Made by a program: the position numbers and the translations under genes. Source: a virus. From it: 20,916 bases of DNA. Within the stretch, counting starts at the first letter, position 1; each line of letters begins with the position of its first letter. The stretch is from IMG/VR virus record IMGVR_UViG_3300006077_000048, positions 1-20,916 of that record. One strand, 5' to 3'. The notes under the pieces were generated by a model. It was not told the origin of the DNA. It saw nothing but the letters and a program-made list of their open reading frames with translations, and searched no databases. This document shows, in pieces, positions 9,183 to 20,916 of this stretch.

Positions 9183-9671
9183 TTATTTTATTTTACCGCC
9201 TCCGCATTTCATTTTACCGCCTCCGCATTTCTTCTTATAAAGAATACCTCCAGACATCATATCTTCTTCATCCTTTCCATGTTTCCCTACAACTTGGCCT
9301 AAATGCTCTTTACCAACTAAGTTCTTAAGTTTGTACAACTTCTTCATTATAGTGGTTTTGACCATATCAATCTCCGCTGAAATATCGTTGAACCCTTTAA
9401 GGTCCGTTCTTTCCTTAGCCATATCTACCATAGGAAGTAGCTCACTTTCTAAATATTTAACAATATCAACTTCCTCTGGAATATTTCTTACAGGAATAGG
9501 TACTTTTCCTCTGGCTAACCTCATTTCTGCTATAGCATCCTTATGATCATTTAAATCATCGTATAGCTCCTCCAACACCATGTGGCTCGACATGTTACTA
9601 GCCTGTAAATGCTCTATCCAACATATATCACTAGCTCTGAATAATTCTCCTATAAATTCTCCGCAATTCAT
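9183..9671 (-). CDS. Small virion-region protein with a duplicated Cys-Gly-Lys tail (162 aa)
   Basis: A mostly helical 162-residue protein is the first gene of the leftmost transcription unit. Its N-terminal half has Cys3, Cys17 and a long acidic helical stretch (LEELYDDLNDHKDAIAEMRL). The middle is helical too (VKYLESELLPMVDMAKERTD). The C-terminus is unusual: after residue 145 it reads KKKCGGGKMKCGGGKIK, in which a KCGGGK unit occurs twice, encoded by an exact 21-bp tandem repeat. Such a tail could bind metal or nucleic acid, form disulfides in the virion, or be a flexible anchor; none of these is shown. I do not recognise the family. The start is set by the ATG at 9671, which lies 15 bp downstream of a promoter-like element. 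Confidence 0.75.
   Translation of the reverse strand: MNCGEFIGELFRASDICWIEHLQASNMSSHMVLEELYDDLNDHKDAIAEMRLARGKVPIPVRNIPEEVDIVKYLESELLPMVDMAKERTDLKGFNDISAEIDMVKTTIMKKLYKLKNLVGKEHLGQVVGKHGKDEEDMMSGGILYKKKCGGGKMKCGGGKIK
9190..9231. repeat. Exact 21-bp direct tandem repeat (2 copies)
   Basis: Two adjacent, identical 21-bp copies lie at 9190-9210 and 9211-9231, inside the 3' end of the 162-residue gene. Each begins attttaccg and ends gcatttc on the plus strand. As 21 is a multiple of 3, each copy adds one KCGGGK(M/I) unit to the protein tail without shifting the frame. Identity at every base suggests a recent duplication or slippage. Confidence 0.93.
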
Positions 9672-12354: not shown

Positions 12355-13758
12355 TTAAAATGAAATAGATTCAGTGATTATCGCTGCTTTGTAAGGATTA
12401 AATACAACAGCTCCACTATATCCTAATAGGTGGTAAGAACTACCGTGGATAGAAGTAGCAATCTGTCCGCTCTCACGTCCTGTTTGTCCACCCATACCGT
12501 TTAAAGTTCCACTTAACATTTCAGCTCCGTCAAGAGTGAATGTTGCCAAGTTAGGTCTTCCAGTAGAAATATCTGGACTCATATCGATACAGAAACCGTA
12601 TCCGTAGTCAGGATATTCTTGAGAAAGCGATCTATCTACTACAAAAGAGATAGTGTTTCCTTGGAAAGTGTAAGTATCAAACTGAGCTCCAACTTTTACC
12701 TTAGAGTTAGATTGCTTAGACCAGAAGTAAGAACCGTCTGCTGGAGAGATAAATCTCAAGTCAGATTTCATTACTTTACCAACTTGGAACCATAATCTTT
12801 CATTCACAACGAATGCATAAGAGTTTCCAATTGGTGTGTCTGATTTTTCAACCATAGCAGCTATGATATCTTCAAATAAATCTGTAGTTAATACAGAGTA
12901 AGAGAATTTGTCACAATATCTTTCGATCTGAGCTATAATACCATCTCCGATTGGAATATCTCTACCCTTCTCGTCTTGCATCATACATTTACCGTTCTCG
13001 TCAAAGTTTGACTGACCGAATAACATGTGCTGCTCTCTAGATACTAAGTAAGAATCCATACATTCTTTCTCCTTAGTATTCATTTTAGCATACTGCTCAC
13101 CATCTTTACCTTTACCCATGTCGATGAAAACATCTTCCATAAGTGCATAGTCACCAGAGAAGTCTACAGAAGCCCTATGTCTAGATAGATAATTTCTATG
13201 TTTCTCAGTGTTTGAGATATACTTGATGTAACCTCTTTCAGAAAGTTCTGGATGGTAGTTAGATCTATATCTTGTGATACGTCCTTTCTTTACAAATTCA
13301 GCTATAACAGGCTTAGATTTGTCAGATGATACTAACATAACCATGTGCTTCCATCTGTTATCCAATTCCTTTTTTGGTGGAGCAACAACCATAAGCGTTT
13401 GCTTATTCTCAAGAACCATAGTATCGTTCTTATCGTAATATTTCTCTGCTAAATAAAGAGGGAAAATTCCGCCTAAAACAGGAGTAGCATCTTCAACGAT
13501 CTTTACCTTTCTGATAAAGTTCACTTTGATATCCCATTCGATAGTCATTGAGTTAATTGGTGTAAATGCGTCACCACCTTTTTTCTTTGTATAAACGTTT
13601 CTCAAAGCCTCAGTAAGGTTTGAAATCGCTAATCCAGGGTACATAGTTACTACTTGTCCCATCTTGTGAGGCTTCTTGCCTAACAATGTTCCAAAGTTTT
13701 GGACTGTCTTTGTATTCGAAACATTCTCCAAAACCGTGTGTCTGTCTACTATTCTCAT
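12355..13758 (-). CDS. Major capsid protein, HK97-fold, crAss-like
   Basis: This 467-residue protein would form the icosahedral shell. The C-terminal half matches the pattern I know from crAss-like capsid proteins: SYAFVVNERLWFQVGKVM; then FQGNTISFVVDRSLSQEYPD; then a GYGFCIDMSPDISTGRP segment; then FTLDGAEMLSGTLNGMGG; and a final LGYSGAVVFNPYKAAII. The N-terminal third carries a basic loop region (NVYTKKKGG) and an elongated strand segment (MTIEWDIKVNFIRKVKI), consistent with an HK97 N-arm and E-loop. The gene follows the probable scaffold by 27 bp of A/T-rich DNA and is closed by a terminator, an order usual for phage capsid operons. The leader has no Shine-Dalgarno sequence. I see no protease gene beside it, so how the scaffold is removed is unclear. 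Confidence 0.88.
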   Translation of the reverse strand: MRIVDRHTVLENVSNTKTVQNFGTLLGKKPHKMGQVVTMYPGLAISNLTEALRNVYTKKKGGDAFTPINSMTIEWDIKVNFIRKVKIVEDATPVLGGIFPLYLAEKYYDKNDTMVLENKQTLMVVAPPKKELDNRWKHMVMLVSSDKSKPVIAEFVKKGRITRYRSNYHPELSERGYIKYISNTEKHRNYLSRHRASVDFSGDYALMEDVFIDMGKGKDGEQYAKMNTKEKECMDSYLVSREQHMLFGQSNFDENGKCMMQDEKGRDIPIGDGIIAQIERYCDKFSYSVLTTDLFEDIIAAMVEKSDTPIGNSYAFVVNERLWFQVGKVMKSDLRFISPADGSYFWSKQSNSKVKVGAQFDTYTFQGNTISFVVDRSLSQEYPDYGYGFCIDMSPDISTGRPNLATFTLDGAEMLSGTLNGMGGQTGRESGQIATSIHGSSYHLLGYSGAVVFNPYKAAIITESISF

Positions 13759-16618: not shown

Positions 16619-18925
16619 TTAAATTTTAGAATTATTTATTTCTTGTACTTTACTATCATTGCTCATATGCAACTGTTCTCTTTCTAGCTGTACAATTTCT
16701 CTCTTAGCTTTAGTTTCTTCGTTTTTATACGTAGCCTCTGTGTTAGCTTTTCTCTCTAGTATAGCAGCCTCTTTTCTTCTAATTTCTTTATCAAGTTCAA
16801 ACTTCTGTCTATCTAGTTCCATCTGTTGAGCAGCGAATCTATCTTTCTCTTGCTGAGCTTTAGAAGCTTGACCGCTAGCATCTTTAAGCTGCTTTTCGTA
16901 GTCCTCCAACTGCTTCTGCATTTGTTGCATTTGCTGTTCTTTCTCTTCGTCCCCATTAAATCCTTCAGATACTATCTTCTTAGCTTCAAATACTGTATCA
17001 GCTAATGTAAGAGCAACAGCAGTTTCAGGTTTAATTATTCCTGCTCCTATCAACTCATTAACCAGAGCTTCTAATTTCTGTATCTTAATAGTATCTTTAG
17101 ATGAATTAGTTACTTGTATATTATAATCTGTATAAGAGAAGTGCTCTTTATCTATCTTAAATGCTATACTTTTTACTCCTACTCTATAAGATCCTTTCTT
17201 TCCTTTCTTATAAGAAGTTTTTGCCTGATCAATAAGTGATGTAAGCATTCTTCTACGTCCACCATCTAATAAGTCAAATAGATTTAATGTTATAAGGGAT
17301 ACCTGTCGTATACCTGTCTTCACATTCTCCACAGCTTCTCTCTGCTCTATTTGTCCGAGCATCTGATCAGTAACTCCAGTAGTTAGTACCACTTGGTGTT
17401 CTAGTGTCTGTAGTATAGCGTTAATACCATTAATAGCATTACCATCTATTCCTCCCTGGAATTCACCATAGTGATTAAATAACTGTGCCCCTTCCTCAGT
17501 AGGGTCAATTAATTCGAATCCTTGCTTACGTAATGCCGTCCACTTCATAAGCCTGTCCATAAACTTACCTCCAAGTATCTTTGGAATACCTGCTACATTT
17601 ACTCTTGTACCAGAAACCCCTGAATTGGCTACCAAATTATTTCTATGGAATTGTGTTATATCGTACATATCCTGTACGTCCTTAAGGCTATATACCATTG
17701 AATAAGGTGCTCCCTGCCTTAGGTTATATGAAATACCATCATAAGATAAGCTAGCTTTATAAGGGTTCCCTTGCTTTCTAACTACACCTTTAGACTTTCC
17801 TCCACCAACATATATATTACCCATTATTCTGGTAATCTCATATCTTGACTCTATCCAGCCTTGCTTTTTAAGCTCTTTTTTATTCTCTACCGGATTGTAA
17901 TCCTGTGTAGGAGACTTGTCATATCTGTTAGATGCCAACCACTCTACGTGATATACTTCTACTACATCCAAAGGATCTCCTGTAAATTGTCTGTAGTTAG
18001 AGAATTCGTCCATATCGTCATGAGATAACTCATGTAAAAGTTCAGGATCGTATAGGTTTCTGTTATTACCATATCCTCCCCAACGTCCAGATACTTTTTT
18101 AAATTCTTCCTCAGTCATTAAATGACCGTACTTCTGTAATATCTGGTGCCTAGTCATGTATTCTCTATGCACTACTGCATCTGCAGTATCTAGGTATAAA
18201 TCTCCTTTATTTTTATTAAAGAATATATTCTCAGGTTTTATAACTTCCATTATAGGATCATCACCTTCTCGTGCTGTATATATTCTCCAGAACATCTCAC
18301 CTGTTATAAGTAAATCATATAATAACTCAGCTGTTTTTCTTCTGAAGTCTAAATCATTACTCTGCTCGAAGAAATATATTAAATGCTGCGCTGCTTCTGC
18401 ATATACAGATATAAAATTCTCTTCTAATTTCTTGGCTAACTGCTCTCCTTTTTTAGCTGTAAAGTTAAGCATAGGAGGAGCTTTATCACTTTGCTCCCCA
18501 TTGTTAGCATAGTACTGCTCTGTCTCTTTTGCAAAGTTTGTCAACTCGTTCTCTATTGATTTTAATATATGCTCCTTCTTCTGCTCTGATTCTAAGTCTA
18601 TTGTAGGCTCATCAGTTACAGATACTCTATAAGAAAAGGATTCGCTTAAGAAAAGACCTACCAGAGCATCAATTCTAGGCTTTATAATAGGAGTGAATTG
18701 AATATCCACAGCATTACCTATACCATAATTATCATTAAGATAATCGTATTCGCTAGTATCCCTTACACCAGAGTAGTATTTTCTACATAAAGGTATATGT
18801 TCTTTGTTAACGACCAACTTTCCTATCCAGTAATCAGCCATGCCCTCTAAGTAATTAGAAGAATTTTTCTGCTTTTCGCTTAAGAAAATTTCGTTTAATG
18901 TCAGGTCTGACCTTAAGTTTGCCAT
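16619..18925 (-). CDS. Portal protein, crAss-like (768 aa)
   Basis: The portal is the ring at one capsid vertex through which DNA is packaged and ejected; it docks the terminase and later the tail. The N-terminal part includes CRKYYSGVRDTSEYDYLNDN and a PIIKPRIDALVGLFLSESF segment, which match the crAss-like portal pattern (YY.G.rD...yL, then the PIIKPRID.LvG motif). The middle contains helices expected of the portal wing and stem. Residues 660-768 form a long charged coiled-coil-like region (EEKEQQMQQMQKQLEDYEKQ and FAAQQMELDRQKFELDKEI) that could build the barrel inside the capsid. Size and position after the terminase fit. The ATG is 1 nt past the stop of the GroES-like gene, so the two are tightly coupled. 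Confidence 0.9.
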   Translation of the reverse strand: MANLRSDLTLNEIFLSEKQKNSSNYLEGMADYWIGKLVVNKEHIPLCRKYYSGVRDTSEYDYLNDNYGIGNAVDIQFTPIIKPRIDALVGLFLSESFSYRVSVTDEPTIDLESEQKKEHILKSIENELTNFAKETEQYYANNGEQSDKAPPMLNFTAKKGEQLAKKLEENFISVYAEAAQHLIYFFEQSNDLDFRRKTAELLYDLLITGEMFWRIYTAREGDDPIMEVIKPENIFFNKNKGDLYLDTADAVVHREYMTRHQILQKYGHLMTEEEFKKVSGRWGGYGNNRNLYDPELLHELSHDDMDEFSNYRQFTGDPLDVVEVYHVEWLASNRYDKSPTQDYNPVENKKELKKQGWIESRYEITRIMGNIYVGGGKSKGVVRKQGNPYKASLSYDGISYNLRQGAPYSMVYSLKDVQDMYDITQFHRNNLVANSGVSGTRVNVAGIPKILGGKFMDRLMKWTALRKQGFELIDPTEEGAQLFNHYGEFQGGIDGNAINGINAILQTLEHQVVLTTGVTDQMLGQIEQREAVENVKTGIRQVSLITLNLFDLLDGGRRRMLTSLIDQAKTSYKKGKKGSYRVGVKSIAFKIDKEHFSYTDYNIQVTNSSKDTIKIQKLEALVNELIGAGIIKPETAVALTLADTVFEAKKIVSEGFNGDEEKEQQMQQMQKQLEDYEKQLKDASGQASKAQQEKDRFAAQQMELDRQKFELDKEIRRKEAAILERKANTEATYKNEETKAKREIVQLEREQLHMSNDSKVQEINNSKI

Positions 18926-18926
18926 A

Positions 18927-19523
18927 TTATTTTATTTTCGCTAATATATCCTGTGCATAGCATACGATATATAATTCTTTATCCTCATTTAAATAAATAT
19001 CTTTTCCAACGAAAGACTCTATTATAACTGTCTCTCCTTTTTTAACTTCAGGAACAGCAGATTTCACTACCTCTGCGAATCTAACATCCTGAGCAGTAGG
19101 GTCTTGTGCTAATACCTCATCTGGAATATGGATTCCACCAGCAGTAATAGTCTCTTTTTTCTTTAACTTTAATAATACCCTATCTTTATTTGGGGTCATT
19201 TTTACAACATCACTCATAACTTTAAACTCTTTAGTACCTATTAACACTATACCAGTAAATGGTACAATTTTTAACTTCTCAGCCCTTGCTTCTGAAGGTA
19301 AGTGAGATCCATAGTAGATATCTATAGCCACGTACTGATCTTTCTCTATAGAATTATTACTGGTACTTACTACTTTACCCAAGTATAATTCTCTTCCATT
19401 ATCGTATCCCTCTATTCCAGACGGTACAATTAACTTACTTCCAGTGAATGAGCTAGGCCATTTCTCTATTTTTAGAACAACATTATCGTTGAATGCTTCT
19501 ATTTTCTCTTTGTTAACATACAT
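18927..19523 (-). CDS. Tandem GroES-like co-chaperonin (two Cpn10 domains, 198 aa)
   Basis: Two GroES folds lie in one chain. Domain 1 (about residues 11-100) reads FNDNVVLKIEK, then SKLIVPSGI, LYLGKVVSTSN, IEKDQYVAIDIYYG and IVPFTGIVLIGTKEF. Domain 2 (about 109-198) is clearer: PNKDRVLLKLKKKETITAGG, then IHIPDEV, FAEVVKSAVPEVKKGETVII and YIVCYAQDILAKIK. These match E. coli GroES at DRVIVKR...SAGGIVL, RGEVLAVG, VKVGDIVIF and ESDILAIVEA. Each domain has a candidate mobile-loop tripeptide for GroEL contact (LIV at 31-33; IHI at 131-133). Family knowledge: GroES caps the chaperonin, and T4 gp31 replaces it to fold the capsid protein. Here a similar capsid-folding role is inferred. Chloroplast Cpn20 shows the same duplication. 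The gene lies between terminase and portal, which supports a morphogenetic role. Confidence 0.88.
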   Translation of the reverse strand: MYVNKEKIEAFNDNVVLKIEKWPSSFTGSKLIVPSGIEGYDNGRELYLGKVVSTSNNSIEKDQYVAIDIYYGSHLPSEARAEKLKIVPFTGIVLIGTKEFKVMSDVVKMTPNKDRVLLKLKKKETITAGGIHIPDEVLAQDPTAQDVRFAEVVKSAVPEVKKGETVIIESFVGKDIYLNEDKELYIVCYAQDILAKIK

Positions 19524-19577: not shown

Positions 19578-20822
19578 TTATTCCCAACCTCCAAGAGGTC
19601 CTTCTTTCTTAATCTGATAAGAATCGAATTCATACTCGTCATTCATCCTATTTTCTTCTTCAGATTTCTTTGGAATGATTCCATATTTCTTATATCCTGT
19701 AACTGGATCTCTATAATATCCAAAATCAGATAAATCTTTTACTTCAGATTCTGAAGGTTTAGCTACCTTACCTAATAAATCGTCATCCATTAATTCACAT
19801 AATCCCATGGCTATAACTAAATCGGAAGGTGTTCTATCTGCTCTGTCATACTCTATAAGCTGTTCTAGCGCTGGATCAAACCACATATTATGAGCATTGT
19901 CATCTATATACTCTGCTAACTTACCATCCTGATAATCAATGTATTGAGTAGATGCGGGAGTACCTATAAGACTTGATTTGCCCTTTAAAGGGTCAGCGTT
20001 CATATTATTTGTAGTTGCAATTGTAGGCCTCTTAATGAATCTATGATACTGTCCCCTAGTTCTGAAGTGCCCTACTATACCAATCTTAGCATACTCTAGG
20101 TTTATTTTAGCATTGAAGAATAAAGACAATTTTAATACATTTTCATAATCATGTCTAACATCATCCGACCTATGATTGTAATAAGCTACATATATATTTG
20201 TAGTTGTGTTGAACATTCCGCCGTCTGGTATCCTCTTCTTAACAGCTGCAGCTAATTTAGATCCCACTGTACCTTTAGCTGAGTCAGCATTACCTTGGTC
20301 AATACTATCGAGCCCCATTATATAAAGGTCATTATATACGCTTCCGTGGCTATTTCTATAAGGTTTCTCTTCCCCCTCTAATATGTATATGTTACCTGCT
20401 TCACTTGGTATAAAGTTAGCCCCAACATGTCTTCCGTCCTGGTCATCTACATACTCTAGAGTACCTTTTATCCACTTAGGTACATCATCATGTTGTAATA
20501 GTATTTTAGTACGCTGAGCTGCTAATAACTCTGTGTTGAATATATTCTTTCCGTCTTTCTGGAATACTTCTTTAATTTCTAAAGGGAATTCTTGACACTC
20601 CTTAAGATATGCCTCAGGGTCATTCTCAATATATTTACGCTCCTCTAGCATAGCTAAACGTGCTTTCTTTATATCAGATACCCCGTATTCTTCCCAGGTT
20701 GTCGCATACTTAAGTTGTGATGGTATAAATAATCCTGTCTCGCTACCCCATTCATTGGTTACAAAATTACTAACATCTTGATTTGTATGGCGCCTATTAT
20801 TAAAAGAAACATTTAAAGCCTG
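19578..20822 (-). CDS. terL: Terminase large subunit, C-terminal nuclease part (5' part outside window)
   Basis: The nuclease half of the packaging motor, which cuts concatemeric DNA. The first ATG is at 20651, giving 357 residues. Numbered from there, YIMGLDSIDQG holds the first acidic position (D115/D118), INLEYAK the glutamate (E186), and TPSDLVIA a late aspartate (D277), the three-site acidic pattern of RNase H-like terminase nucleases. NVLKLSLFFNAKINLEYAKI with HFRTRGQYHRFIKRP resembles crAss-like terminases. The same frame stays open upstream to 20822 and encodes 57 more residues, including WGSETGLFIPSQ, typical of the linker before the nuclease. That stretch has no ATG, GTG or TTG and begins after a TAA at 20823-20825. 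The Walker A/B ATPase domain is absent from the window. The likeliest explanation is the 3' exon of an intron-split gene; a broken or separately encoded subunit is the alternative. Confidence 0.85.
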   Translation of the reverse strand, partial: QALNVSFNNRRHTNQDVSNFVTNEWGSETGLFIPSQLKYATTWEEYGVSDIKKARLAMLEERKYIENDPEAYLKECQEFPLEIKEVFQKDGKNIFNTELLAAQRTKILLQHDDVPKWIKGTLEYVDDQDGRHVGANFIPSEAGNIYILEGEEKPYRNSHGSVYNDLYIMGLDSIDQGNADSAKGTVGSKLAAAVKKRIPDGGMFNTTTNIYVAYYNHRSDDVRHDYENVLKLSLFFNAKINLEYAKIGIVGHFRTRGQYHRFIKRPTIATTNNMNADPLKGKSSLIGTPASTQYIDYQDGKLAEYIDDNAHNMWFDPALEQLIEYDRADRTPSDLVIAMGLCELMDDDLLGKVAKPSESEVKDLSDFGYYRDPVTGYKKYGIIPKKSEEENRMNDEYEFDSYQIKKEGPLGGWE

Positions 20823-20837
20823 TTACAATTTGTAACA
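20821..20837. repeat. Perfect 17-bp palindrome at the terminase frame break
   Basis: TGTTACAA and TTGTAACA flank a single central base, so an 8-bp inverted repeat is exact. It overlaps the point where the terminase frame closes (TAA at 20823-20825). In DNA this is typical of a dimeric repressor site. In RNA it could form a 6-bp hairpin with the loop AAATT, compatible with a peripheral stem of an intron. Neither reading is proven. Confidence 0.8.
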
Positions 20838-20848
20838 AGATTTAAAAG

Positions 20849-20865
20849 AAGATAAAAAATATCTT
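20849..20865. repeat. A/T-rich inverted repeat upstream of the terminase segment
   Basis: AAGATA and TATCTT pair across a 5-base loop of A residues on the plus strand (T on the minus strand), with further A/T pairs outside one mismatch. It lies 11 bp from the 17-bp palindrome. It is a weak stem that could be part of an intron structure or chance in A/T-rich DNA. Confidence 0.5.
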
Positions 20866-20895
20866 TTTTAATTTGTGAATTTTTGATACACTCAA

Positions 20896-20916
20896 ATAAA
20901 AAAAAGGAGGCAATAT
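20896..20916. promoter_or_regulatory. Edge signal: ribosome binding site (+) or half of a terminator (-)
   Basis: The plus strand ends with a run of A residues, then AGGAGG and CAATAT. Read on the plus strand, this is a strong Shine-Dalgarno sequence 4 bases before a possible ATG whose G would be the first base outside the window. Read on the minus strand it is GCCTCC followed by eight T residues, the 3' arm and T-run of an intrinsic terminator whose other arm would lie outside. The visible sequence cannot decide, but the leaders of the other genes here lack Shine-Dalgarno sequences. Confidence 0.35.

Follow-up and report, generated by a model that had tools for sequence, protein, structure and literature searches.

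We found that a 198-residue protein encoded in the window, i.e. the whole 20,916-base IMG/VR contig analysed here, consists of two head-to-tail Cpn10/GroES domains. Its gene lies between the genes of the large terminase (terL) and the portal, a place that it keeps throughout one lineage of crAss-like phages. Fusions of two lid domains are best known from chloroplasts. We give a probability of about 0.7 to the reading that the protein is a phage counterpart of the plastid Cpn20, a tandem co-chaperonin that would cap a GroEL ring, of the host or of the phage, to fold virion proteins.

The majority of genes in the window are on the minus strand, where the order is terL (3' part), the tandem gene, the portal gene, several small genes, a probable scaffold gene, the capsid gene and more virion genes (Table 1). 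The contig belongs to a crAss-like phage, as it encodes a Crassvirus-type capsid protein, the portal and TerL in order (Pfam Crass_capsid, PHROG 6547 and PHROG 6681). The sequence-only reading had the right coordinates for the tandem gene (18927-19523); the gene is on the minus strand, and the plus strand of the same interval is full of stops. Its stop codon occupies positions 18927-18929 and the portal gene starts at 18925. The coordinates and the PHROG matches thus bear out the claimed location between terL and portal, 1 nt from the portal ATG.

Table 1. Features of the window discussed in the text, with their position, strand and supporting evidence.
Feature	Position	Strand	Evidence and remarks
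Tandem Cpn10 (two-domain GroES-like) co-chaperonin gene	18927..19523	(-)	198 aa; sequence, homologues, predicted structure
N-terminal Cpn10 domain, residues 1-102	19218..19523	(-)	34-homologue profile vs GroES; VIA structure match
N-domain mobile loop, residues 23-43	19395..19457	(-)	tripeptide L31-I32-V33 at 19425-19433; pLDDT <50 at 23-43; loop alignment
N-domain strand 2-3 turn, 13 residues, without roof hairpin	19335..19373	(-)	24 residues in the same stretch of E. coli GroES
C-terminal Cpn10 domain, residues 103-198 plus stop	18927..19217	(-)	Pfam Cpn10 E 8.8e-14; VIA Z 8.9 to 1wnr
C-domain mobile loop, residues 122-143	19095..19160	(-)	tripeptide I131-H132-I133 at 19125-19133; pLDDT <50 at 125-130; loop alignment
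C-domain strand 2-3 turn, 12 residues, without roof hairpin	19035..19070	(-)	24 residues in the same stretch of E. coli GroES
Portal gene	16619..18925	(-)	768 aa; PHROG 6547 portal E 3.7e-55; Pfam P22_portal E 1e-10
terL 3' part (large terminase)	19578..20757	(-)	PHROG 6681 E 1e-27; 78% identity to the TerL of relative L001
Major capsid protein, 467 aa; candidate substrate	12355..13758	(-)	Pfam Crass_capsid E 5e-23

The C-terminal half is recognizable on its own. It matches Pfam Cpn10 (PF00166) over residues 108-197, with 51.7 bits against a cut-off of 21.1, and PHROG 3188 'co-chaperonin GroES' (E 6e-9). The NCBIfam GroES models match the same residues with scores under the model cut-offs. The top sequence matches in the PDB are Cpn20 and Cpn23 of Chlamydomonas, both of which have two domains. 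The N-terminal half of the window protein is too divergent to give a direct Cpn10 match when searched alone against Pfam, and a BLASTP comparison of the two halves returned only an 11-residue chance match. When the N-domains of the window clade (3 sequences) were made into a profile and compared with GroES by hhalign, the score was at shuffle level (13 of 200 shuffles were equal or better). The same three-sequence profile was compared with the N-half of the other clade of homologues and with its own C-half, and none of 200 shuffles reached these scores.

We accepted the N-domain as Cpn10 only after more homologues had been found. A profile built from the N-domains of 34 homologues matches GroES with a probability of 98% (E 2.9e-13), the corresponding C-domain profile does so with 98.4% (E 5e-15), and the two profiles match each other (E 3.5e-16). 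Taken alone, the N-domains of the window clade match GroES at 58% (E 1e-4) and the N-domains of the other clade at 94% (E 2e-7). Several homologues (such as L003, L005, L007, L059, L061, L070, L078, L082 and L084) have two separate Pfam Cpn10 matches in one open reading frame. The proposal of two Cpn10 domains in one 198-residue protein is therefore confirmed by the Pfam match of the C-half, the family profile of the N-half, the homologues with double matches and the structural comparisons below. The expectation that each half would separately be identified as Cpn10 held for the C-half; for the N-half it failed with the protein's own sequence and held with the 34-homologue profile. The domain tree did not separate a single duplication from repeated ones.

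The AlphaFold2 model, a moderate one (pLDDT 70.7 and pTM 0.69, from 8 sequences), shows two barrels with similar strand order. Its low-confidence loops (residues 23-43 and 125-130, pLDDT <50) are placed where the mobile loops of GroES lie, and each half of the predicted model has a beta-barrel fold and a flexible mobile loop. The N-half modelled alone and without alignment did not fold (pLDDT 35). Foldseek placed Cpn20 (E 1.3e-9) and Cpn23 at the top. With VIA-align, the model matches plastid Cpn23 with a Z of 13.7 over 174 residues that span positions 1-197. As this match covers the full length, the relative placing of the two domains is also Cpn20-like. The N-domain by itself aligns with the Cpn10 of M. 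tuberculosis (1p3h; Z 9.1 over residues 2-98) and with T4 gp31 (Z 8.8 over residues 4-97).

We then searched for the gene in related phages. By scanning viral contigs for the portal, we obtained 40 loci, of which 39 were examined and 38 had a readable region upstream of the portal gene. A homologue lies directly upstream of the portal in all 38, in agreement with the suggestion that crAss-like relatives would have the same gene between terL and portal. Some of these loci are contigs already in the set, and there are 34 distinct homologue sequences, window included. Homologues have 193-209 residues (one has 234 when counted from the first start codon). In nearly all loci, the portal gene follows at a distance of -1 to +12 nt, and stop and start codons often overlap by one base; two loci have a longer gap of about 73 nt. 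This near-overlap suggests translational coupling with the portal. Both domains are under purifying selection, with dN/dS of about 0.06-0.3 in most pairs. No tandem gene lies between terL and portal in crAss001, phi14:2, Fpv1 and cr1_1, nor in the more distant contigs L008-L012. Its presence in 38 of 38 readable loci and its absence elsewhere indicate a core gene of one crAss-like lineage, and not of all crAss-like phages. A tblastn search of 50,697 phage records with the window protein gave no match, and a scan of genome contigs found no relatives and hence no clue to the host.

The hydrophobic tripeptide that the sequence-only reading had noticed in the mobile loop of each half is indeed there. 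In the loop alignment, LIV and IHI are comparable with the I-V-L of GroES. Most members of the other clade keep a tripeptide in the N-loop (e.g. V/I-Y-V/I/L/M) and have G-I-Y-D-D in the C-loop, where the third hydrophobic residue is lost. As a consequence, most relatives that do not belong to the window clade may have one loop in each pair that does not bind GroEL. The roof hairpin, which is usual in Cpn10/GroES, if not universal, is missing from the window protein: the turns between strands 2 and 3 have 12-13 residues instead of the 24 of E. coli GroES, i.e. the hairpin is gone in both domains. In the other clade, the N-domain turn is 19-23 residues long and the C-domain turn mostly 14. Roof loops are also missing from T4 gp31, and the slightly enlarged chamber is believed to make room for the 56-kDa capsid protein gp23 (PMC6318259).

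The host GroEL had been suggested as the partner. It need not be, because two relatives, G010 (69 kb) and G016 (175 kb), encode a GroEL of their own together with the tandem gene. These GroELs keep the catalytic DGTTT and D398, and in the alignment their lid-binding hydrophobic residues are only partly kept. The 66-kb contig of the closest large relative (L004) has neither GroEL nor a further Cpn10. When a GroES profile was used to seek a separate single-domain Cpn10 in 11 related records of up to 175 kb, which may be fragments, all matches that were reported fell in the tandem gene. GroEL also occurs in the distant relative L008, upstream of terL (354-1940), and in phi14:2, and 36 marine genomes of the phi38:1/IAS group have been described as carrying it (PMC5332604). 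Hence, these phages commonly have chaperonin genes, and what is new is the tandem lid. The GroEL gene of L008 is of a divergent type, like those of L099 (3219-4790, minus strand) and L100 (3794-5392, plus strand). In the L100 protein, from a 175-kb contig, part of the apical lid-binding region appears to be missing in the alignment.

If the protein caps GroEL, three (or four) copies would close into a lid ring, in which the contact between the neighbouring domains of each pair would be intramolecular. The LIV and IHI tripeptides would dock on the apical domains of a GroEL ring. This ring would be the host's for phages that lack a GroEL gene, and might be phage-encoded for those that have one. 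In plastids, the native lid with Cpn20 is thought to be a mixed ring with seven domains; lids built artificially with six or eight domains still work on GroEL (PMC5780408). These precedents suggest the same options here: three tandem units with a seventh domain perhaps provided by one host GroES, or else an asymmetric lid with six or eight domains. In the absence of roof hairpins, the chamber would be more open on top, as with T4 gp31. This would suit bulky virion proteins, e.g. the capsid protein or the portal, the product of the following gene. A dedication to virion assembly, with the capsid protein as substrate, is what the position of the gene and the analogy with gp31 suggest; gene position is no proof of the substrate. 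Two observations count against GroEL capping, namely the degenerate C-loops in most relatives of the other clade and the partial conservation of lid-binding residues in the co-occurring phage GroELs.

This reading can be extended to the entire crAss-like lineage, which would then depend on an obligate two-domain lid (of six or eight domains, or mixed with one host GroES) whose halves divide labour, which is tuned to capsid or portal folding and which in some phages is paired with a phage GroEL. The division of labour is proposed since the GroEL-binding tripeptide is retained by the N-domain loop alone in most relatives. We put this extension forward tentatively, as it is rather less probable than its contrary. 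With the tandem protein, Cpn20-type lids occur outside plastids and are kept throughout a lineage of crAss-like phages. The protein would mark a conserved chaperone step of these phages, probably in virion assembly. It would also provide a simple system in bacteria for studying how lids made of two-domain units fit onto a seven-fold chaperonin, and a handle for the soluble expression of crAss-like capsid and portal proteins.

It is important to consider that a protein with the Cpn10 fold may no longer work with GroEL. It could be a direct assembly factor for portal or terminase, or a minor part of the virion, and this would fit the fixed place between terL and portal, the near-overlap of the genes and the degenerate C-domain loop of most relatives. 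We find this unlikely, given that both loops still have hydrophobic tripeptides in the window clade and that two relatives also encode GroEL. In addition, a separate conserved open reading frame upstream of terL (in L005, L006 and L007), which matched no named family, could be the small terminase. The N-half might also be an unrelated barrel or a decayed spacer, leaving the C-domain as the sole co-chaperonin, as could be thought from the missing Pfam match of the window N-half and from the shuffle-level score of the three-sequence profile. The full-length match to the Cpn23 structure and the 34-homologue N-profile largely refute this, and the double Pfam matches in several homologues and the low dN/dS of the N-domain argue against it as well; we give it hardly any credence.

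The protein could also be a lid on another seven-fold ring, e.g. the host ClpP protease, which it would redirect or block. This idea comes from the best structural matches, as Cpn20 and Cpn23 are chains of 7ekq, an entry described as the Chlamydomonas chloroplast ClpP complex. However, 7ekq is the sole entry with two-domain Cpn10 chains among the matches and would rank at the top whatever the function. Since the place of the gene among virion genes offers no hint of a protease either, we regard a role with ClpP as very improbable.

Among solved structures, the best match in both sequence and structure is to the plastid Cpn20/Cpn21/Cpn23 proteins, which also have two head-to-tail Cpn10 domains in about 200 residues. 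In contrast with these, the window gene is borne by a phage, lies in a virion operon and lacks transit peptide and roof hairpins, and identity is 22% or less. Hence, the protein may work like plastid Cpn20, but we do not class it as one, because it has neither the plastid lineage nor the transit peptide. T4 gp31 and the phage co-chaperonins of PHROG 3188 resemble it in being phage-encoded Cpn10 folds without roof loops and with a presumed role in folding virion proteins (PMC6318259), whereas gp31 is single-domain and heptameric and the window protein has two fused domains. Phage co-chaperonins are not all single-domain, contrary to the sequence-only reading. The 200-residue gp096 of Cellulophaga phage phi18:3 (PHROG 13932), annotated only as 'co-chaperonin GroES', already looks two-domain and is a likely precedent. 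Its model aligns with the window protein over the full length, its C-half is Cpn10 by Pfam (E 8.5e-8) and its gene is closely upstream of terL and portal. It differs in lying on the other side of terL, in having a first half that profiles do not recognise as Cpn10 and in belonging to a phage of the Pachyviridae, not crAss-like. Phage phi18:3 also encodes a single-domain Cpn10 (gp080), and the two proteins would fit a lid of the 3x2+1 type.

Within crAss-like phages, the 'putative 10kDa chaperonin' gp15 of crAss001 is also Cpn10-like and encoded upstream of the terL-portal block, but it has 136 residues, one domain and a place outside the terL-portal interval. In the open-access literature, we came across no account of a tandem co-chaperonin from a crAss-like phage. 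Both ingredients, plastid tandem Cpn10 proteins and phage co-chaperonins, are known; the tandem lid in crAss-like phages is new. Other layouts were seen in passing. The human-gut phage MT835470 (L013, 1299-1850) has, upstream of terL, a 183-residue protein with an N-terminal extension followed by a single Cpn10-like domain. A distant relative (L010, 1938-2537) encodes 199 residues with a length and layout like those of phi18:3 gp096 and a Cpn10 match at the C-end only.

Some further observations concern the rest of the window. The homology of terL stops abruptly at about position 20757, just before the residues NEWG, and the sequence upstream (20757-20916, minus strand) has stops in frame and no similarity. 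From this sharp break, we conclude that an intron or another insertion, which runs off the contig, probably interrupts terL; an Rfam search gave no match. In one relative (L090), the terL frame has 1129 residues instead of the usual 764 or so, which suggests an intein. A 162-residue protein within the virion gene block (9183-9671, minus strand) matches PHROG 858 (starvation-inducible regulator, Dps-like; E 2.6e-13). It shares the tail GGILYK(K/S), at or near the end, with different proteins of L001 (3-560), L004 (2-3118) and L039, and this tail may serve the lineage as a common tag for targeting or packaging.
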